Source: Chloroflexota bacterium (GTDB lineage: Bacteria > Chloroflexota > Limnocylindria > P2-11E). From it: a stretch of 64,000 bases of DNA. The notes below the pieces were generated by a model. That model worked only from the letters and a program-made list of their open reading frames with translations, did not search any database and was not told the origin of the DNA. Position numbers and translations under genes: made by a program. Shown one piece after another: positions 16,098 to 52,063 of the stretch (positions are counted from its first letter, which is position 1; each line of letters opens with the position of its first letter). Location of the stretch: contig DAIDAP010000037.1 in the NCBI GenBank assembly GCA_027310565.1, forward strand, positions 320,163 to 384,162, read 5' to 3'.

Positions 16098-17246
16098 ATG
16101 AAGGGCGCGGTCGCGCTGGTCATCCTGGTCGCGGTCGCCTTCGGCCTGACCTACGCCGACTACGCCCCGCTCATCCCCCTGGTCCGGGCGGAATACGCGC
16201 TCGACGATCTCGCCGCCGGGCTCCTCTCGACCGCCCTCTTCACCTCGTACCTCATCGTCACGGTCGCGACGGCCGGACTCGTCGACCGGGTCCCGCCCAA
16301 GCGGCTCGTCGCGGTCGGCCTCGCGGGCTCCGCGGTGGGAACGGCGCTCTTCGCCTCGTCGCCGGCGTACGCCGTGGCGGTGCTGGGCAAGGCGCTCCAG
16401 GGCGCGGGGTCGGCGGTCTCCTTCGTCGCCGCGACGCGCTACGTCGCGGCGCTCTACGGACCGCGGCGCAGCCACTTCGCGCTCGGCCTCTACGGCGGCG
16501 GCTTCACGCTGGGCAGCGCGCTCGCTCTCCTCGCGATGCCGACGCTCGCGACCGCGCTCGGCGGGTGGCGCGACGCCTTCCGCCTCGAGACGGCGGTCAT
16601 CGCCGCGACGCTGCTGCTGTGGCTCGCCGCGCCGCCGCTCGCGGCGGCGCGCACGCCCGGCGGGATGCGCGACGCGCTGCGGTGCGGGAACTGCTGGTGG
16701 ACCTTCGTGCAGCACGCGGCGGGCTTCGGCCTGGCGCTGTCGTCGGGCACCTGGATCACCGTGTACCTGCTGCGGGAGTTCGCGCTGCCGCTCGCGCTCT
16801 CGGGCGTCCTCGGCTCGCTCCTTCTCGTCGTCGCGGTGGTCGCGCGACCGTTCGGCGGCCTCCTGCTCGCGCGCGAGCACGTCGCGACGCGCGTCGTCAT
16901 GCGCCAGGGCACCGCGGCGATCCTCGCGGGCGTCGCACTTCTCGCCGTGCCCGGACGGCCGCTCGCGCTGGCGCTGCTGGGCGCGGTGCTCGTGGGCGTC
17001 GGCGTCGGCCTCCCCTACGCCGCCGTCTTCAACACCGCCGCCGCGTCGCTCCCGCGCTCGCCGGGTGCGGCGCAGGGCCTCGCCGCGATCGGGGGGACGA
17101 CCGGTGTGATGGTGGGCGCGCCGGTCATGGGCTACGCGGTGCAGACGTTCGGCTTCTCGGCGGCGTGGCTCTTCGTCGGTGCGGTCGCTGCCGTGGCGTT
17201 CGCCGGCACGTTCGTCATGCTCGGCGAGGAGGACGTCGGGCGCTGA
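16098..17246 (+). CDS. Major facilitator superfamily transporter
   Basis: 382 residues with about 12 membrane helices. The MFS loop between helices 2 and 3 is seen as GLVDRVPPKRLVAVGL, and the glycine-rich helices resemble the NarK/CynX-type (nitrate, cyanate) group. Substrate cannot be told from sequence. ATG at 16098 with GAGGGG upstream. Regulated with its divergent neighbour through the phased repeat at 16055-16082. Confidence 0.85.
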   Translation: MKGAVALVILVAVAFGLTYADYAPLIPLVRAEYALDDLAAGLLSTALFTSYLIVTVATAGLVDRVPPKRLVAVGLAGSAVGTALFASSPAYAVAVLGKALQGAGSAVSFVAATRYVAALYGPRRSHFALGLYGGGFTLGSALALLAMPTLATALGGWRDAFRLETAVIAATLLLWLAAPPLAAARTPGGMRDALRCGNCWWTFVQHAAGFGLALSSGTWITVYLLREFALPLALSGVLGSLLLVVAVVARPFGGLLLAREHVATRVVMRQGTAAILAGVALLAVPGRPLALALLGAVLVGVGVGLPYAAVFNTAAASLPRSPGAAQGLAAIGGTTGVMVGAPVMGYAVQTFGFSAAWLFVGAVAAVAFAGTFVMLGEEDVGR

Positions 17247-44367: not shown

Positions 44368-44412
44368 CTGTGCCGAGGGCCAGGATCGAACTGGCGACAC
44401 ATGGTTCTTCAG
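44368..44412. repeat. Left attachment site: displaced 3' half of tRNA-Phe
   Basis: 45 bases identical to 49563-49607. The right copy is part of the intact tRNA-Phe gene (anticodon loop to 3' end, plus 3 bases). The left copy is followed by unrelated DNA instead of the 5' half, as expected for attL after site-specific integration. Confidence 0.9.
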
Positions 44413-44465
44413 GTGAACTTCTCAGTGCTTCGCGATTTTCCGAGACAACTCGCGTGCTGCGGCTC

Positions 44466-44493
44466 TTGGTTCGTCGTGATGGGTGTTGGTTCG
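44466..44493. repeat. Direct repeats TTGGTTCG beside attL
   Basis: TTGGTTCG occurs at 44466-44473 and 44486-44493, 20 bases apart (two helical turns), between the att repeat and the integrase stop. A related TTGGTTTGCG lies near the right end at 49497. Candidate arm-type binding sites for the integrase; not proven. Confidence 0.35.
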
Positions 44494-44500
44494 CGCTGGG

Positions 44501-45496
44501 CTAACTGACGCGGCCGAGCGCCGCGTCGAGGGCCTTCGGGTAGCGCTTGAGCTGCGCGACGGGGATCGTGCCGCGGTACCGCCGCAGCATCCGCCAGCCG
44601 TTCGCGCCCCAGCCGTGGACCTCCATGTTCGCGCTGTCCGGCCATCCGGCCTCGTGCTTCTGGCGCACGCTCGTCGCTCGCAGGCGGTGCTGCTTGAAGG
44701 CGAGCCCGGTCTCGGCGCGGATGAGGCGCCGCAGTCGCTGGGCCATCGAGTTCCAGCCCAGCCGGGTGAACGCGTCGCCCGACTCGGTGAGGAAGAGCGG
44801 CTCGTCGACGGAGCCGCGGTACGCTGGACGTCCGGCGTGCAGGTACGCGCGGATCGCGTCGCGGCCGGCGTCCTCCATCGGGACCTCGCGGACGCCGTGC
44901 GTGCCGCGCTTGGTCTTCGACTCGTCGTCGATGATGAAGTGGCCGGACTCGCGGTACTTCGCCATCACGACGTTGTGCAGGGTGAGCTCGCGCGCCTCCT
45001 TCGCGCGGAAGCCGTGGAGGAGGGTGGCGATGACCGCGACGCTGCGCAGCCGGTTGGGGCCCTGGTCGACGGCGCGGAGGATCGCGCGGACCTCGGCGTC
45101 GGTGTACGCGGGCATGCCGCGGTCGCTCGGCCGCGGCTGCTTCACCTCCGCGAGCGCGCTCACCCGGACGTCGTCGCTGCCCGCGTACCAGATGCGCTTC
45201 CGTGCGAGGTAGGTGGCGAAGCTCTTGAGCGCCACGACCTTGTTCATGCGCGTGTTGAGGTTGCGCGCCGTGCGCACGTAGCGCTCGACCGTGTCGGGCT
45301 CGAGGCTCGCGAGGGTGCGCGCGCGCTCGGGAAGGAAGGCGAGGAACGCCAGGAGATGCGAGCGGTACACGGCGAGCGTCGTGGGCTGGACCTCGTCGGC
45401 CTTGTCCGCGAGGAACCAGCCGACCGCGTCGGCGAGCGGGAAGTCAGGACGCCGCACGCGATTGTCTCGGTATGGAGCTTGAAAGGATCGACCCAT
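44501..45496 (-). CDS. Tyrosine recombinase (integrase)
   Basis: 331 residues. SAM-like N-terminal core-binding domain (about 25-110) and catalytic domain with Arg164 (HGFRAKEARE), His270 and Arg273 (QHRLRATSV), His/Trp at EVHGWG (about 294-296) and the nucleophile Tyr307 (RRYRG). All catalytic residues are present, so the protein should be active. Its position beside attL in a tRNA gene supports the role. Its start overlaps the 3' end of the Replic_Relax gene by 53 bases. Confidence 0.9.
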   Translation of the reverse strand: MGRSFQAPYRDNRVRRPDFPLADAVGWFLADKADEVQPTTLAVYRSHLLAFLAFLPERARTLASLEPDTVERYVRTARNLNTRMNKVVALKSFATYLARKRIWYAGSDDVRVSALAEVKQPRPSDRGMPAYTDAEVRAILRAVDQGPNRLRSVAVIATLLHGFRAKEARELTLHNVVMAKYRESGHFIIDDESKTKRGTHGVREVPMEDAGRDAIRAYLHAGRPAYRGSVDEPLFLTESGDAFTRLGWNSMAQRLRRLIRAETGLAFKQHRLRATSVRQKHEAGWPDSANMEVHGWGANGWRMLRRYRGTIPVAQLKRYPKALDAALGRVS

Positions 45497-46445
45497 CCGT
45501 CTTCTCCGGTCCGGACGGGATGACAGGCGCAGGCGAGTCTAGCGAGGCCGGCGTGTCGGCCAAGAGACTCACGCGCGCTTCGCTCCCGACGACCTGCCAG
45601 ATCGCGCGCTCGACGCTCGCGTCGGCGGTGAGGTGACCGAGCGTCGCGAAGCGGAACGTCGCCGAGGCGGCGGAGCGGCGCGGCGGCCGCGCGACGGCGA
45701 GCTCGCACACGCGGCGCAGCTGCGTGGCGCGCGCCCGCGTTTCCGCGAGCACGAGCACGAGCGGCCACACCGGAATCTGCGCCTGCCACGCTCCGCCCTC
45801 GCACAGATCCAGATACCGGCTGAATCTTCGTCCGATCTCGAGGGTGTGATCGGTCCCGAGGTCGACCTCGGTGAGGAGGTGAATGCGCTGGTGCGCAGCG
45901 CGATACACAACGTACGCGTCCGGCCGCACGCACGATGAGCCGAGCCGCCTCGCGGCCTGCCAGTCGCATTCCCACGACGCAAGCGCATGGCCGTCGTGCG
46001 CCCTGGCGGCCCGCGCGATGGCAAGCAGCACGTCGGCGGTGGCGAGAGCCCGACGGATGAGCAAGGCGCCCGACGACTTCAAGCGCCACGACGGCATCGC
46101 CGGGTCCTGGGTACGCGCGATGCGCCAGCCCGCGCTGGTGAGCCCGTACACGGGGTAGAGCGCGCCCTCGGAGGGACCGCCGAACATCCGCGTGGTCATC
46201 GCGGCAAGGCCACGACGGCGCAGTGACTGCAGCACGCGGTGTGTCATGACCAAGCGCGACCGCGCGGTCACCGCGGATCCCGCGAAGAGGAACTCGCTGA
46301 CCTGCGCCGCGCTGAGGTAGCGCAGGCGCGCGAGGTACGCGAGGACCTCCGTTTCGCGATCGCTGAGCGGGACGGTCGTGTACCGCATCAGGAGCGCGGA
46401 AGTTCCGGCACCGGGTCGGGCCGACACGGCCGTGGATCGGGCCAT
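45444..46445 (-). CDS. Replic_Relax family protein
   Basis: 333 residues. Winged-helix start (LSDRETEVLAYLARLRYLSA, then VMTHRVLQSLRRRGLAAM), followed by a nuclease-like domain (SSCVRPDAYVVYRAAHQRIH, TEVDLGTDHTLEIGRRFSRY). This matches the Replic_Relax family found on plasmids and integrative elements and thought to act in replication or DNA relaxation/mobilisation. A second Met at position 20 (46388) is an equally good start. Coupled with the integrase gene. Confidence 0.75.
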   Translation of the reverse strand: MARSTAVSARPGAGTSALLMRYTTVPLSDRETEVLAYLARLRYLSAAQVSEFLFAGSAVTARSRLVMTHRVLQSLRRRGLAAMTTRMFGGPSEGALYPVYGLTSAGWRIARTQDPAMPSWRLKSSGALLIRRALATADVLLAIARAARAHDGHALASWECDWQAARRLGSSCVRPDAYVVYRAAHQRIHLLTEVDLGTDHTLEIGRRFSRYLDLCEGGAWQAQIPVWPLVLVLAETRARATQLRRVCELAVARPPRRSAASATFRFATLGHLTADASVERAIWQVVGSEARVSLLADTPASLDSPAPVIPSGPEKTDGSILSSSIPRQSRAAS

Positions 46446-47400
46446 CGGGCCGGCTCCCTGCGTTGACCGGAGGCAACGTCGAAAGAACGTGAAAGCAACG
46501 CGGAATCAACAGCCGCGACGAGGGCCCGCGCCCGTCCCGATGGCTGCTCGACTCCGTTGCGCAGACACCTGAACAGCACGATCACGCGCGAGTGATATGC
46601 CGGGCGGGCTCGGCGGGCTATGACGGGCGCCACGACGCGAGCGTGACGCGGGTCACGCTACAAGCGGTAGGACAAACTGCGCAGCCGCAGTGGGCAATTC
46701 TGCGCACCTTCCCGTCCCGAGACGGGACGGTTGTCGGACGGAACAACAGCGCTGCCAGGAATGCCGAAGTGTCGTTTCGGCGCCACCATCCAGGGTGGGA
46801 CGGATTGGCTCGCGCGGCACCCGCTCATGCACTGTATATCGGTGACCTGCTGAACCGGCGAACTCGCCGCCGTGACCAATTGCAGCCGCAAGCGCGCACC
46901 AGCGTCGTCCGTGTAGTACACGCGGTCAAGGTGGCCCGTTTCGCCCTCGCCAGGCGTGCGCGAGCAACCGCAGGAGCCCATCGCCACTGTGCGCGGCGTG
47001 GCTCGTCCTTGGATGCGCGGCGCGCGAATGTGCTCGAGGGTCAGCCACCCGACGTCGCGGCGCTCGCCCTCGCCAGCGAGCAGCGTCTGCACCGGCGGTA
47101 CTGGCGCATCGTGCGCCGCGGCAAACTCGGCCAGACCGCCGCGGTCGCGGTCGCCCGCGAGTCTCGGCGGCCTCTTCCGGCGTGAGGAGCAGACTTCCGG
47201 CGAACCACTGTCATGATGGAGCGGCCGGTCAAGTCCTGATCGGATGTGGTGCCCGAGGAGCAGCGAGGGTGCGCCGGGCAGGTGGCAGCCCCGACTTCAG
47301 GCCACTCTGATATCCGCGGGTCAAGACCGTATATCAGGTCGTTCGAGTATTCCGCTCGGCTGCGTAACTCACGTAGGTCGAGCGGCCAGCGCACCAGCTA
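46446..47400. other. Element region without a convincing gene
   Basis: About 950 bases. A 144-codon open frame on the minus strand (46658-47092) contains the plausible stretch LDRVYYTDDAGARLRLQLVT but no recognisable family and no good RBS; it may be a gene remnant. A perfect hairpin CCGTCCCG-AGA-CGGGACGG lies at 46712-46730. Nothing else is seen. Confidence 0.4.
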
Positions 47401-47982
47401 TCAGTCGCACCCCCACCCCATCAGGAACTCTCCCGTTTGCGCATCAACGATCGCCGCGACGACGGTCACTGGAGCGAGTTGACGGGGGAGCGGCTGAAGG
47501 GACGCCTTGTGTCGCGCGGGGCCGGCGCTTGGCCGCTGAATCGATTGCCCACGGAAGACCAGGGCCCACGCGGGTCTTGAGAGCACCGCCTGCCCCCGAC
47601 TGTCCTTCTGAATGGTGTTCGCAGTGGGGGCAACTCCCAAGGTCCCGCCCGATGTAACGAGCGCAGGTACTGCGATGGCGGCTGTGCCCTTGGCGCCGAT
47701 CGCTCCAACGGCACGTTCCGCAGTTGCGCGGTCCACAGCGGAGACGCTGAAGCTCGTCGCCACGACGGCCACGTTCGCGCGATCGCACTCTTGCAGCACC
47801 GCGTTGACGTTGACGGACGAGCCGGCCGAGCTGCTTTGCACGCTCGCCTCAGCCGGGGGCTGCAGGGACGAGCTGCTGGCTTGCATGAGCGCTGCCCTGA
47901 TCTGGGTTCCGCCGCCCAGGGTCAGGTACGCGAGAACGAGCACGAAGGCGAACGCGAGTCTCACGGACATCTTGCGTCCCAT
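47401..47982 (-). CDS. Secreted hypothetical protein
   Basis: 193 residues with an N-terminal signal sequence (MSVRLAFAFVLVLAYLTLGG). The mature part begins with a Ser/Gln-rich stretch, then a region with NVNAVLQECDRANVAVVATS and a C-terminal strand VAAIVDAQTGEFLMGWG. Not recognised. The ATG at 47982 overlaps the upstream secreted-protein gene by 22 bases; ATG 47970 is an alternative and makes the signal peptide more regular. Likely an operon with that gene. Confidence 0.55.
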   Translation of the reverse strand: MGRKMSVRLAFAFVLVLAYLTLGGGTQIRAALMQASSSSLQPPAEASVQSSSAGSSVNVNAVLQECDRANVAVVATSFSVSAVDRATAERAVGAIGAKGTAAIAVPALVTSGGTLGVAPTANTIQKDSRGQAVLSRPAWALVFRGQSIQRPSAGPARHKASLQPLPRQLAPVTVVAAIVDAQTGEFLMGWGCD

Positions 47983-48719
47983 ATGTCGAAATCACTCCCA
48001 CTCGAAGCTGTCAGCGCGTCGTATCCGGCGTCGCCTCGGTCCGGGTTACTGGGATTGTTCGGCGTCCCAGCTTGGTACGGGTTGCTGGGCGTTCCGAATT
48101 GCGTGAACCACCAGTTCGAGAAATCCGAGTACTGCACCGAACGAAAGGTAGTGTGGGTCAGCCGATCGCCAGCAGTTTGGTCACCAGAGAAATTCCACTC
48201 CTCGCCAAATGACTGCACCTCGTTCGGCAGCCATCCCAGCCCAACCCCCGAGACGATCGTCGAACCCATTTGGAACGTCCACACACCGTTCGTCGCAGGA
48301 CTGTTGGCCTGGTAGAAGTACACGTTCGGCGGGTAGATCGTGCCGTACCACTGCGGTGGGTAGATGTGACCAGTCGCGTCGGTGTACTGAATGAAGAATA
48401 CCGGGTTGTAGGGATCGCTATTCGTCGGGGCCTTTGCCCAGCCCGCCTGCGCATACCGGGTGCCGTTGACACCCATGACCCATGCGGAAGTCGAGCCGCC
48501 GTTGTAGTAGACGAACGGGTTGTAGGTTCGAATGTAGCCACGCGCGCCGCTGATGGTTCCCCCGAAAACCTGATACCCACCGGTGAACCAGTTGTCGTAG
48601 ATGCCGGAGCCTGGGAGCGACGTACAGGCACTGTCTGCCCTCGCCTGTGAGGGAGCGAAGAGTGTCGCCGCTACGGCGAAGACAGCTGCTAATGACAAAC
48701 GCAACGCTCTCATGTACAA
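47961..48719 (-). CDS. Secreted beta-rich protein of unknown function
   Basis: 252 residues. Signal peptide with AxA cleavage (about 1-29, ending SQARA). The mature chain is rich in Tyr, Trp, Asn, Gly and aromatic strand patterns (GYIRTYNPFVYYNGGSTSAW, GTRYAQAGWAKAPTNSDPYN, PVFFIQYTDATG), like extracellular beta-sandwich proteins of unknown function in soil bacteria; it has only two Cys. The TTG at 48717-48719 is favoured as start because AGGAGGG ends 8 bases before it; ATG 48713 is the alternative. GC content is far lower than the chromosome, so it was probably acquired. Confidence 0.65.
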   Translation of the reverse strand: MYMRALRLSLAAVFAVAATLFAPSQARADSACTSLPGSGIYDNWFTGGYQVFGGTISGARGYIRTYNPFVYYNGGSTSAWVMGVNGTRYAQAGWAKAPTNSDPYNPVFFIQYTDATGHIYPPQWYGTIYPPNVYFYQANSPATNGVWTFQMGSTIVSGVGLGWLPNEVQSFGEEWNFSGDQTAGDRLTHTTFRSVQYSDFSNWWFTQFGTPSNPYQAGTPNNPSNPDRGDAGYDALTASSGSDFDIWDARCP

Positions 48720-49562
48720 CGCGAGATCCCTCCTCGGTGTCGGCCCAAGCCATTGCGAACCGTCTCGTCCGTTTCAACCGGTTGAGCACCGGCCAGTATC
48801 TAGCTCCAGTATCTAGCTTTCCCGCTGCACTGTGGGTAACGCGCACGCAACGATTCAATGACGGTCCCGTGTCGGCGGGCCGCGCTTATGTGTGCTATGC
48901 AGACGCACAGCCTGGCATGGCGAACTGGCGGCCACCGCGGCCCGCGATGGCAAGGCGTGAATGTCACCCGCGCATCGGTCAGCGTCGCCATGGAGCATCC
49001 TCGGCCAGACGCGGAGGAACTCGCGCCACAGCGCCGCCTTCGTATGGGGTCGAGGCAGCGAGCGATCTTGCGCGCGAAGTAGCGTGCCCCTCGGTGGCCG
49101 AGGTCGGCCCCCCGAGTTCGACCGCTTGGTGCTCGGCGTCCACGCGCCCCACGTCGGACGGCGAGCTCAATCTCCGTCGTCACGACGCCGTGCTGCGTGA
49201 GGAACGCTGAGCGTGTTCGCGGGTCGATGGCTCGGGGGATCCGGGCAGACATTTGGGGCTGCGCGGAGCCCACGCGCGGTCAGCAACTACGAATGGAGGC
49301 TCGAGCGTGAGGCTGCCGCTCGTGACGAAGACCGCGCTCTTGCGCCTTTGTCGTCGTCGAGCACGCCCAGAGCCCGCGCAGTCGAACGCCACCGACGCGC
49401 TGCGCATGCTGGTGCTTGGCTTGGACGATCCGCCGACCGGCATCGTCGTCCAGCAGCAGATCAACGGGCGGACGGCCTGTCACCCCGCCGTGAATGTTGG
49501 TTTGCGTCGCCGCCGTGGGCTCGGAGGAGCCCGACTTCGTGCGTCTTGTTGAGGAATGGCGA
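48720..49562. other. Element region without a convincing gene
   Basis: About 840 bases. Several overlapping open frames exist on both strands (for example 48800-49273 minus, starting MGSAQPQMSARIPR) but none has family features. I treat it as non-coding or decayed DNA. It contains the promoter side of the secreted-protein gene and a 13-base tandem repeat. Confidence 0.4.
48793..48818. repeat. Tandem 13-bp repeat CCAGTATCTAGCT (2 copies)
   Basis: Two exact, adjacent copies about 75 bases upstream of the secreted-protein gene. On the minus strand each contains TAGATACT, similar to a -10 element. May be an operator or promoter duplication. Confidence 0.4.
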
Positions 49563-49607
49563 CTGTGCCGAGGGCCAGGATCGAACTGGCGACACATGGT
49601 TCTTCAG
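49563..49607. repeat. Right attachment repeat inside tRNA-Phe
   Basis: Identical 45 bases to 44368-44412. It spans from 3 bases beyond the tRNA 3' end to the anticodon loop, so crossover at this site rebuilds a complete tRNA. Confidence 0.9.
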
Positions 49608-49638
49608 ACCATTGCTCTACCGACTGAGCTACCTCGGC
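49566..49638 (-). tRNA. tRNA-Phe (anticodon GAA), integration target
   Basis: 73 nucleotides; acceptor stem GCCGAGG/CCTCGGC pairs fully, anticodon loop CTGAAGA, T arm with GTTCGATCC. No CCA encoded. Its 3' half is supplied by (or shared with) the integrated element. Confidence 0.96.
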
Positions 49639-49755
49639 GAGGGTCTCATTTTACTCGGAAAGTCTGCGAGCGAATCGAATCGGTGTGGGGGCCGATGGTC
49701 ACGACGACCATGTGCGCCGGGCGGCGCAGTGGTCTACCCACCTCCGCACGAACGG

Positions 49756-49776
49756 GTTGAGACCATTGCTCTCAAC
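49756..49776. repeat. Hairpin containing a tRNA-Phe fragment
   Basis: GTTGAGA and TCTCAAC pair around the loop CCATTGC. The core AGACCATTGCTCT is identical to 13 bases of the intact tRNA-Phe gene starting at its anticodon stem. A further copy of AGACCATTGC is at 49796-49805. Likely scars of earlier recombination at this locus. Confidence 0.45.
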
Positions 49777-49911
49777 GGAGATCACGAGCAGGCGAGACCA
49801 TTGCCCTTGACCGACCCTTGCGCCGCAAGCAGCCAATGTGAATGTGAATGTGACGCCTCTTGACCGGTGTTCGCGCTGCTCATGGCGCAGCCGCGCGGAG
49901 AAGGCAAGACG

Positions 49912-50232
49912 CTAGACGGCAGCAGCCTCCGCGGGCACGATCGCGAGCTGAGCGCCAAGAGCCCGAGCGAGACGCGCGAGGGTGTCTTCTGTCGCGTTGC
50001 TAGCGCCCCGCTCGATCTTGCTGATCTCCCCTTGGTCGATCCCGGTGAGTTTCGCGAGCTCTGCCTGGGTCAGCTGGCGACGGTGTCGTAGGACGGAGAG
50101 CTCGCCACCGATGCGGAAGCGATGTGCCGTGCGCTCGAGCTGAGCGACCGCCGCGGGCCCTTCGGCGCGCGCCTCCGCCTCGACCTCCCGCCAGAACTCC
50201 TCGAACGACGTTGGCTTCCGTGCTTTCTCCAC
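49912..50232 (-). CDS. XRE-family antitoxin (HigA-like)
   Basis: 106 residues. C-terminal helix-turn-helix RQLTQAELAKLTGIDQGEIS and KIERGASNATEDTLARLARA. The N-terminal 45 residues are acidic and should contact the toxin. It lies 33 bases after the toxin gene, the toxin-first order of higBA-type systems. Autoregulation is expected. Confidence 0.82.
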   Translation of the reverse strand: MEKARKPTSFEEFWREVEAEARAEGPAAVAQLERTAHRFRIGGELSVLRHRRQLTQAELAKLTGIDQGEISKIERGASNATEDTLARLARALGAQLAIVPAEAAAV

Positions 50233-50265
50233 GGACAGGATTATGGCCTTTGGCCCATATGGGCG

Positions 50266-50715
50266 TCAAGGGGTCGGTCGTGAGCGGTACTCATGGAGGC
50301 GCTTCCTCGCCGGCTTGATCTCCTCGTCCTGGCGGCGACCGCTTGCGTCGTCGCCCTTGTCATAACCGTTGAGGAGAAGCAGCAGCTTGTTGCCATGCGG
50401 GTAGAAGAACACTCGCAGCGTGAGCCGCTCGTTCGCCTCCGGATACTTCGCGTGACCGCCGTACATCTCGAGGATCTCCTCGGCGTTCCGCCGAACGCGG
50501 AACTCGAAGAGGCCGTCGCCCAGCGCCTTGCCCCACTCACCCTGACAGACCTCCACGCCTCGGCGCTGCAGCACCTCGCGAAGCGCGATGCCGATCGCGC
50601 GGCGCAAGTATGGGTCGAGCCCGCGCATCCACTCGAGCACGGGCTGTCGCCCGGTGTGCGGATCGTCGTAGAACTCAAGTGAGTACGGGAATGCCGTCGG
50701 CGGCGTGCTCGGCAC
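50266..50715 (-). CDS. RelE/HigB-type toxin
   Basis: 149 residues, longer than minimal RelE. Core: SLEFYDDPHTGRQPVLEWMR, LGDGLFEFRVRRNAEEILEM and LRVFFYPHGNKLLLLLNGYD, then a basic C-terminal tail (EIKPARKRLHEYRS). This fits the phage-derived Gp49/HigB-like branch; such toxins cleave mRNA at the ribosome. Paired with the XRE antitoxin. Inserted to the right of the tRNA-Phe gene, in DNA that seems acquired. Confidence 0.82.
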   Translation of the reverse strand: MPSTPPTAFPYSLEFYDDPHTGRQPVLEWMRGLDPYLRRAIGIALREVLQRRGVEVCQGEWGKALGDGLFEFRVRRNAEEILEMYGGHAKYPEANERLTLRVFFYPHGNKLLLLLNGYDKGDDASGRRQDEEIKPARKRLHEYRSRPTP

Positions 50716-50756
50716 GGAGTCAGCCTAACCCGGGCTACACGCACGACAATCAGTCC

Positions 50757-51309
50757 ATGCGCGATCCAGGCGCACCGCTGGACCTCTATCGGCTGCTCAA
50801 GCCCGCGGGCGAGCCCGAGCTCATCCATGCGCAGGTCGCAGCCGGGGCATCGATCTTGGATCTCGGCTGCGGAACTGGCCGAATCACGCACGAACTGATC
50901 CGGCTCGGTCACCCGGTCACCGCCGTCGACTTCGACGAGCGAATGCTTCGCGAGATTCGCGGTGCGGAAACCGTGTTGTCGCGCATCGAGGATCTTCGAC
51001 TGCGCCGCACGTTCGATGCGGTCCTCCTGATGAGACCCTGACGACCCGGACATCGGACGCGACGGCAAGTCGAGCCAGAGGGACGTCGGTGGGGTCACGA
51101 TCCGCGTGTCCAACGTCCACCGCGAGGGACCGCTGCTCTATCAGACCGTCGAGTACGACGCGGGTGAGCGTGGTATCTGGCGGATGCAGCTCGACGGAAG
51201 GTACGTACTCAGCGACGAGGAGACGCTCGCCGATCGCGCCTCAGCCGGTCTGCGCTTGGACCACCGGATTGACGAGCGTCGGCGCTGGCTCGCCGCACGA
51301 GCGACGTAA
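50757..51309 (+). pseudogene. Broken SAM-dependent methyltransferase
   Basis: The first part (from ATG 50757) has the class I methyltransferase motif ILDLGCGTGRITHELIRLGH and AVDFDERMLREI, then DAVLLM, and stops at 51041. The C-terminal part is in another frame from about 51061 (DVGGVTIRVSNVHREGP, YVLSDEETLADRASAGLRLD) to the stop at 51309. About 40-50 codons expected between the parts are missing, so there is both a deletion and a frameshift. No product of full length is possible. Confidence 0.75.
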
Positions 51310-51336
51310 CTCGGCGAATCTCGTCGCGATCCTTCG

Positions 51337-51374
51337 AGACCATTGCCCCACCGACCGAGCGACCTCGGCGAGGG
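51337..51374 (-). pseudogene. Degraded 5' half of tRNA-Phe
   Basis: Aligns with the intact tRNA-Phe gene from the anticodon loop to its 5' end plus about 5 bases (34-35 of 38 identical). The 3' half is absent. The break coincides with the inner boundary of the att repeat in the intact gene, so it looks like the other side of an integration event. Confidence 0.75.
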
Positions 51375-51403: not shown

Positions 51404-52063
51404 CTACTTCGCGGGAAAGTCGACCTGCCGCCCGATGATCGGCAGGTACCGCCCCGCCCCGATGATCGCGGGCGCGAGCCTGCTGCCCAGGAGTGCCGGC
51501 CGCACCGTGTCCAGATAGAACCCGAGCGTCGCGTCGAACCGCGCGACCTGATCGGCCGGGATCGCACCCTTCGCGACCTGCGCGGCGATCGCGTCGAGCG
51601 TCGCCGGGTCGAGCATCACGGCGAACTGCGGGTTCGCGGCGAGCGCGGTCTTCATCGCGGCGACGGCGGCCTGGTCGATGGTGGGCTTCCCATTGAATGG
51701 CGCGAGCAGGTCGTCGAACGACACGACCGCGACGAGCGCGACGTAGACCCCCACGAGCGCGGTCGCGGCGCCGAGCGGCAGGCCGAGCGTGTGATCGGCC
51801 GCGCGCAGGAGCGCGACGCGCCGCACCAGCCCCGCGAGGGCCCCGCCGACGCGCGCGACGACGCCCACCGCCACGCCGAGCACGAGCACGCCGAGCCCGA
51901 TCCCCGCCGTGCCGGCCGGCACGAGGCCGGCGCCGGGCCCGGCGTAGAGGGCGTACAGGCCGGCGACGCTCGCCCCGACCGCGACGAGCGGCATCATGAA
52001 GCCTCGCCGCCAGCCGGCGAACGCGCCGAGCGCCACCGCCGCGACCATCGCGACGTCCAGCAC
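51404..52063 (-). CDS. CvpA-like membrane protein
   Basis: 219 residues, GTG start. Four membrane helices in the first 130 residues, beginning DVAMVAAVALGAFAGWRRGF as in CvpA/colicin V production proteins, then a soluble C-terminal part (PQFAVMLDPATLDAIAAQVA, FYLDTVRPALLG). CvpA proteins affect envelope homeostasis; function here unknown. Confidence 0.7.
   Translation of the reverse strand: MLDVAMVAAVALGAFAGWRRGFMMPLVAVGASVAGLYALYAGPGAGLVPAGTAGIGLGVLVLGVAVGVVARVGGALAGLVRRVALLRAADHTLGLPLGAATALVGVYVALVAVVSFDDLLAPFNGKPTIDQAAVAAMKTALAANPQFAVMLDPATLDAIAAQVAKGAIPADQVARFDATLGFYLDTVRPALLGSRLAPAIIGAGRYLPIIGRQVDFPAK

Follow-up and report, generated by a model that had tools for sequence, protein, structure and literature searches.

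A tRNA-Phe gene as a putative target of integration on both of its sides in a Chloroflexota genome, and integrase-less cassettes upstream of its counterparts in relatives

In a 64-kb stretch of a Chloroflexota genome (the window; GenBank assembly GCA_027310565.1, contig DAIDAP010000037.1), a single gene for phenylalanine transfer RNA (tRNA-Phe) very probably serves as an integration site from both of its sides, with crossover within the anticodon loop and with the upstream event repeated serially in relatives (a probability of roughly 0.8 in our estimate). A 5.2-kb element carrying its own tyrosine recombinase (Int) lies downstream of this gene, and a small cassette containing no integrase lies upstream of it. 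The best reading of both structures is site-specific integration at the anticodon loop, which on the upstream side would be of the rare type that restores the 5′ half of the tRNA and would be serial and non-autonomous.

Two insertions at one tRNA-Phe gene

Comparison of the window with itself revealed an exact 45-bp direct repeat, with positions 44368-44412 equal to 49563-49607; the chance expectation of such a repeat is about 1e-18 in 10 kb, and no second exact direct repeat of at least 30 bp was found in the 64 kb. A tRNA-Phe gene with the anticodon GAA was called on the minus strand at 49565-49638 by ARAGORN and Rfam (70 bits), and the repeat therefore corresponds to nucleotides 32-74 of the tRNA plus 2 bp past its 3′ end. 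These data confirm the initial annotation in its claim that attachment (att) repeats of 45 bp surround a 5.2-kb block. An intact tRNA gene and a correctly oriented displaced fragment bracket the segment, a tyrosine integrase is encoded within it, and its guanine-cytosine (GC) fraction is 0.61-0.67 vs about 0.73 in the flanks. The att arm next to the outer repeat copy contains GAACCAACAC and GAACCAAGAG, both of which resemble the tRNA core site GAACCATGTG.

A third piece of tRNA-Phe, which the initial annotation had missed, was found on the other side of the gene. It is a 5′ half at 51337-51374 with 89% identity, directly preceded by a Colicin_V/CvpA-like gene (51404-52063) and adjoined by tRNA-Val; remnants of tRNA-Phe near tRNA-Val also occur in two related genomes (G001:C37 and G002:C74). 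The DNA between this remnant and the functional tRNA ends in a right arm, in which GAGCAATGGTCT-type sites are iterated in both orientations and are followed, immediately upstream of the tRNA, by a -10-like TAAAAT.

These features suggest the following course of events. On the downstream side, the 5.2-kb element would integrate by means of its own recombinase and restore the 3′ half of the tRNA, which would push the old 3′ half to 44368. On the upstream side, a cassette lacking an integrase would integrate, presumably through a recombinase supplied in trans and either earlier or later than the downstream element, and its end would supply the tRNA promoter and a new 5′ half in place of the native ones; the native 5′ half would thereby be displaced to 51337, where it appears to be decaying. 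In relatives, repetition of the upstream event would build an array whose newest cassette adjoins the tRNA. The proposal that tRNA-Phe is the integration site thus stands with respect to the element and its att repeats, but a simple attB (the bacterial attachment site) is not what is found here, since the promoter and the 5′ half seem to have come from the upstream insertion. The coordinates of all features are given in Table 1.

Table 1 Features of the tRNA-Phe locus (positions in the window)
Feature	Position	Strand	Evidence and remarks
Outer att copy flanking the 5.2-kb element, a displaced 3′ half of tRNA-Phe; putative anticodon-loop crossover CTGAAGA	44368..44412	-	Exact 45-bp repeat
Att arm, from Int stop codon to outer att copy	44413..44500	-	Read directly from the sequence
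Tyrosine recombinase (Int), 331 aa	44501..45496	-	PF00589 1e-9, 38.8 bits (cut-off 27.1); PF02899; phrog_1 integrase 1e-19
Replic_Relax protein, 333 aa	45444..46445	-	PF13814 2e-18; possible start 46388
Secreted-looking open reading frame (ORF) 2, 193 aa, no family	47401..47982	-	Order of the pair kept in G045
Secreted-looking ORF 1 without a family, 252 aa from TTG or 250 aa from ATG at 48713	47961..48719	-	34% homolog in G045
Inner att copy, the functional tRNA-Phe 3′ half, probably brought by the 5.2-kb element	49563..49607	-	tRNA call and repeat
Functional tRNA-Phe (GAA), probably rebuilt from both sides	49565..49638	-	ARAGORN; Rfam
Right arm of the 5′ cassette	49639..49813	-	nhmmer right-arm profile, E 9.4e-33 (see text); aligned with relatives
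5′-type cassette, 1.7 kb, integrase-less, partly decayed	49646..51336	-	Right arm at one end, displaced 5′ half at the other
XRE-type antitoxin-like protein, 106 aa	49912..50232	-	PF13560 1e-13; G003, G006 and G019 have homologs at their cassette loci
Gp49/RelE-like toxin candidate, 149 aa	50266..50715	-	PF05973 2e-4, below cut-off
Methyltransferase fragment, pseudogene-like	50757..51041	+	PF13649 3e-10 over 70/97 positions
Displaced, apparently decaying native tRNA-Phe 5′ half	51337..51374	-	89% identity; just downstream of Colicin_V/CvpA-like gene

Cassette arrays in related genomes

When relatives were queried with the tRNA, dozens of half-tRNAs were returned. The 5′ halves comprise tRNA nucleotides 1-39 and end in the anticodon loop CTGAAGAA, with which the 3′ pieces start, and the overlap between the two kinds of half is exactly this loop (7-8 bp), flanked by ATGGT/ACCAT. 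A short flanked overlap segment is the geometry expected for the overlap region of a tyrosine recombinase. The same geometry of the overlap region has been described (PMC8371274). The 5′ halves were found in seven genomes (G001, G002, G003, G004, G006, G013, and G016) and are mostly 97-100% identical, all eight copies in G003 being the same. They have a single orientation and lie upstream of the lone full tRNA-Phe wherever the contig includes the latter.

Arrays were found at G003:C79 (locus L057), G001:C57 (L061), G016:C66 (L060), G002:C89 (L066), and G004:C43 (L069), with a 5′ half every 1-15 kb. Most of these halves come after a right arm some 175 bp long, in which the GAGCAATGGTCT-type sites are again iterated in both orientations and followed immediately upstream of the tRNA by TAAAAT or TAGAAT, and before a left arm some 115 bp long (131 positions; E down to 2e-32). 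Small cassettes that have intact arms and a single gene, 1.0-1.7 kb in length, are common. The oldest 5′ half in G016 has no right arm and directly follows an oppC-type gene; G008 has this gene, at 86.6% identity over 806 bp, just upstream of an uninterrupted tRNA-Phe. The right flanks of these two loci do not match, and the comparison with an empty site is therefore one-sided; together with the arms of the arrays, it fits serial insertion at the tRNA with the newest cassette nearest to it.

The cargo of the cassettes in relatives is varied, consisting of PIN toxins, AbiEii, glyoxalase, RibD_C reductase, SnoaL, luciferase-like monooxygenase, and DinB proteins as well as MFS pumps, a formamidase, a histidine kinase, a LuxR regulator, and an NHL protein. 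Its GC fraction is 0.60-0.68 vs about 0.73 for the flanks of the window, and some cassettes have little recognisable coding sequence. The toxin-antitoxin pair of the window's cassette is found at cassette loci in four genomes, in one orientation or the other; its homologs in G003, G006, and G019 show a DNA identity of 66-70%, and in all three a homolog of the toxin candidate (51-62%) adjoins the same antitoxin. Two neighbouring loci were also recorded. In G002:C44, a cassette left arm is adjoined by a large AAA ATPase that resembles defence proteins of the MADS/Lamassu type (L225, 7970-10399). In G001, two tRNA-Phe 5′ halves of the same orientation lie 88 kb apart (G001:C32:3312-91747; L063, L233-L236, L064), separated by chromosome-like DNA rich in genes for coenzyme A (CoA)-transferases and acyl-CoA dehydrogenases, which may reflect a rearrangement or a very large insertion; this stretch was rejected as a cassette on account of its chromosome-like GC and gene content.

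Searching with the left-arm model gave 36 places in 10 of the 177 genomes of the class, all within one family, and no match outside that family in a set of 400 genomes sampled across the phylum; a scan of viral contigs for the 5′ att site also gave none. The named records with cassettes are soil "Chloroflexi bacterium" assemblies and one contig binned as Eisenbacteria, which is perhaps misbinned. Around the site, only nucleotides -1 and 17 are diagnostic of lineage: both are C in all eight 5′ halves of G003, whereas in G001, G002, and G004 nucleotide 17 is T in 13/13 and nucleotide -1 is T in 12/13. No such position was found in the nearby arms, whose identity is 79% within a genus and 62% between genera. 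Inside the genus, the left arms do not cluster by genome (p 0.48), which indicates that the arms are not species-specific. Since the halves are lineage-diagnostic and the arms are not, the half-tRNA seems to be homogenised per lineage while the arms are shared; either recombination whose crossover point varies along the 39 bp or turnover within the clade could bring this about.

The 5.2-kb element and its relatives

The gene content of the downstream element largely agreed with the initial annotation. Its claim of an intact tyrosine recombinase at one end is borne out by a PF00589 score above the cut-off, and a Replic_Relax protein is indeed encoded next to it, by a gene that overlaps the Int gene by 53 bp. 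A homolog of Int with 52% identity belongs to an element in tRNA-Thr of G016; no match was found among the sequences of the Protein Data Bank, and no relative in a pattern scan of IMG/VR viral contigs. The Replic_Relax protein has no other match in the window's genome and none in 72,556 plasmids. As the initial annotation had also stated, conjugation genes are absent: no Pfam match to relaxase or conjugation genes was obtained among the ORFs of the element, which sets it apart from integrative conjugative or mobilizable elements. Phage or satellite genes for structural, packaging, or capsid-hijacking functions were not found either, the only PHROGs matches being to an integrase and, weakly, to replication initiators. 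Recognisable genes are missing from about half of the segment, including 46500-47400 and 48720-49560.

The remaining two ORFs had been described as secreted proteins that may form a trait carried as cargo. Both have N-terminal stretches that look like signal peptides by eye, and neither matched Pfam, PHROG, NCBIfam, or PADLOC; a single-sequence structure prediction for ORF 1 (252 aa) gave a mean confidence score (pLDDT) of 34 and no usable fold. In the distant relative G045, homologs of both are overlapping neighbours, the second being recognised by the resemblance of its C-terminal end only, and a weak homolog of ORF 1 is present in G038. To judge from these homologs, the two ORFs are a real conserved pair that also occurs outside the element, and a secreted trait as its cargo is conceivable.

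The same type of element recurs in relatives. G016 has a 5.5-kb twin in tRNA-Thr(UGU), consisting of the 52% identical Int, an adjoining Replic_Relax protein, and a family-less ORF, with the tRNA-Thr 3′ half repeated exactly over 45 bp at its two ends (C49:11567-11611 and 17092-17136); contig C49 ends at such a copy, and the full tRNA-Thr is at the start of contig C17. In G002:C102 (16001-48000; L223 and L224), the 3′ half of tRNA-Glu recurs behind the full gene in five exact tandem copies of 43-50 bp, with related Ints and Replic_Relax proteins between several of them and a subtilase in one element. Given the independent twin and the tandem, the element type is, by its sequence relationships, real, and the window's element therefore belongs to a recurring family of small elements at tRNA 3′ halves. 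A further set of tRNA-Phe 3′ halves is scattered over contigs C6, C58, C63, C64, C75, C77, and C87 of G006, several of them followed by a shared arm, TCCTAGCGAATT..GCGCCCGCGCTGACC..GAACCAATG, which makes up a multicopy 3′-type family. Overall, the 5.2-kb element is a correct call but an ordinary find, that is, a standard small integrative element.

Candidate recombinases, rival explanations and known systems

A question raised by these arrays is which recombinase moves the 5′ cassettes. No integrase ORF was found in the fetched array loci. In G001, G003, G004, and G013, the search for PF00589 above 1e-5 gave one gene per genome, which is Xer-like and single-copy; in G001, which is 96% complete, it is the single full PF00589 gene overall. 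The window's genome (G000) encodes the Xer-like protein at C8:38907-39941. The Xer-like gene scores 55.6 bits vs an integron-integrase cut-off of 265. A serine recombinase was rejected as the cassette recombinase because it is not common to the array genomes, none being found in G001, G002, G004, G013, and G016 (five of the eight genomes searched, which are array genomes or their neighbours). The Xer-like protein is thereby left as a candidate, and the window's Int is a weaker one. A separate observation concerns G001:C50 (L136, 6200-6730), where the remnant of one Xer-like subgroup lies beside an intact member of another, which suggests a replacement of the chromosomal recombinase.

Several points weigh against integration from both sides with serial insertion upstream. 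The E-value of 9.4e-33 for the window's right arm is inflated because the window's copy was itself an input row of the profile; in the window's cassette, the left arm falls short of significance, and R1 had no match in the window's genome (G000). None of the fetched relatives shares the window's left flank with an empty site. All relatives are metagenome-assembled genomes, and the order of arrays across contigs is left uncertain because several contigs end at tRNA halves. We nevertheless consider it very improbable that tRNA duplication or homologous recombination, without site-specific insertion, gave rise to the tRNA pieces: the 5′ halves do look homogenised per lineage, but the halves always end at the anticodon loop in one orientation, have arms, and differ in the cargo between them.

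The arrays might instead be graveyards of autonomous 5′-restoring islands that integrated serially and then lost their integrases and other genes, in which case there would be no cassette system. Such islands are known, autonomous 3′-type elements do stack in tandem in G002, and the poverty of some cassettes in coding sequence, together with decayed sites such as the one decayed cassette of G000, points in the same direction; the well-conserved interior 5′ halves and arms, the frequency of small single-gene cassettes with intact arms, and the lack of any integrase remnant in the searched cassettes despite many sites argue against it, as does the single full PF00589 gene of G001. We rate this explanation as a serious one that falls somewhat short of an even chance. 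Capture run by the host in the manner of an integron, with a chromosomal recombinase inserting and removing non-autonomous cassettes at tRNA-Phe, is tentative and rather unlikely by comparison. It would account for integrase-less cassettes with conserved, genus-specific arms and varied cargo, and for an Xer-like gene as the sole tyrosine recombinase found in four of the genomes and no serine recombinase in five; but the Xer-like gene is also found in relatives lacking arrays, where it may serve only to resolve chromosome dimers, and G001 has a different Xer-like subgroup plus a remnant of the other. The broader proposal that a family of soil Chloroflexota practises integron-like capture at a functional tRNA-Phe, its cassettes being moved in trans by a host recombinase that is possibly Xer-like, is more doubtful still. 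That the Int of the 3′-type element also moves the 5′ cassettes in trans appears improbable. The two kinds of insertion share the crossover segment, and the att arm (44413-44500) contains a palindrome weakly similar to the cassette left arm, but this similarity is at the edge of the controls and on one strand only (score 28 vs 26 for the best control); moreover, the array-bearing genomes G001, G003, and G004 lack a homolog of the window's Int, and the homolog in G016 sits in tRNA-Thr.

Integration at the anticodon loop from both sides remains our preferred reading, and what is less standard about the locus, beside the element, is the series of integrase-less insertions, each of which would exchange the promoter and 5′ half of a tRNA gene that is essential. 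The cassettes, if active, would represent a third route, besides integrons and tandem islands, by which bacteria collect small cassettes at a fixed site, and incoming DNA would come to control an essential tRNA. A tRNA-Phe with stacked integrase-less cassettes may thus mark a gene-collecting site in soil Chloroflexi, in a lineage with arrays that is known here from metagenome assemblies only; island finders that require one integrase per island would miss the 5′ cassettes.

Among known systems, the islands catalogued in Islander likewise show an intact tRNA, a displaced fragment, an integrase between them, a subsite in the anticodon loop, and known tandems; the 5.2-kb element fits them fully, whereas the 5′ cassettes are without an integrase. 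In that catalogue, 159/3919 tRNA islands (about 4%) are 5′-restoring, tandem arrays need an integrase and a tRNA fragment per member, and only four arrays have at least three members (PMC4383910). Archaeal pTN3-like elements also use the tRNA 5′ half, and bacterial cases have been called rare (PMC8371274). As in these 5′-restoring insertions, the cassettes bring a 5′ half and thus a new tRNA promoter; those insertions, however, are single and carry an integrase, while here small integrase-less units with conserved arms are inserted serially. Tycheposons and additive islands (PMC10872708, PMC5217437) resemble the cassettes as cargo units at tRNA genes, the additive islands of Methylophilaceae having recurring tRNA-Lys 3′ ends (PMC10872708), but their repeats are 3′ ends, and tycheposons are 4-200 kb long and carry a recombinase. 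Our literature search, with incomplete coverage of subscription papers, found no description of integrase-less 5′-half cassette arrays. In architecture, the 5′ cassettes resemble integron arrays, with which they share the lack of an integrase, one polarity at a fixed site, typical cargo including toxin-antitoxin pairs, and lineage-specific recombination sites. Unlike in integrons, there is no integron integrase and no integrase was found in the array loci examined, the anchor is a functional tRNA, and the sites are tRNA 5′ halves with long arms that look double-stranded in type rather than like attC hairpins, folding only irregularly (z -0.6 to -3.4). The 5′-cassette system is thus a new variant of tRNA-targeted integration with the architecture of a cassette array.

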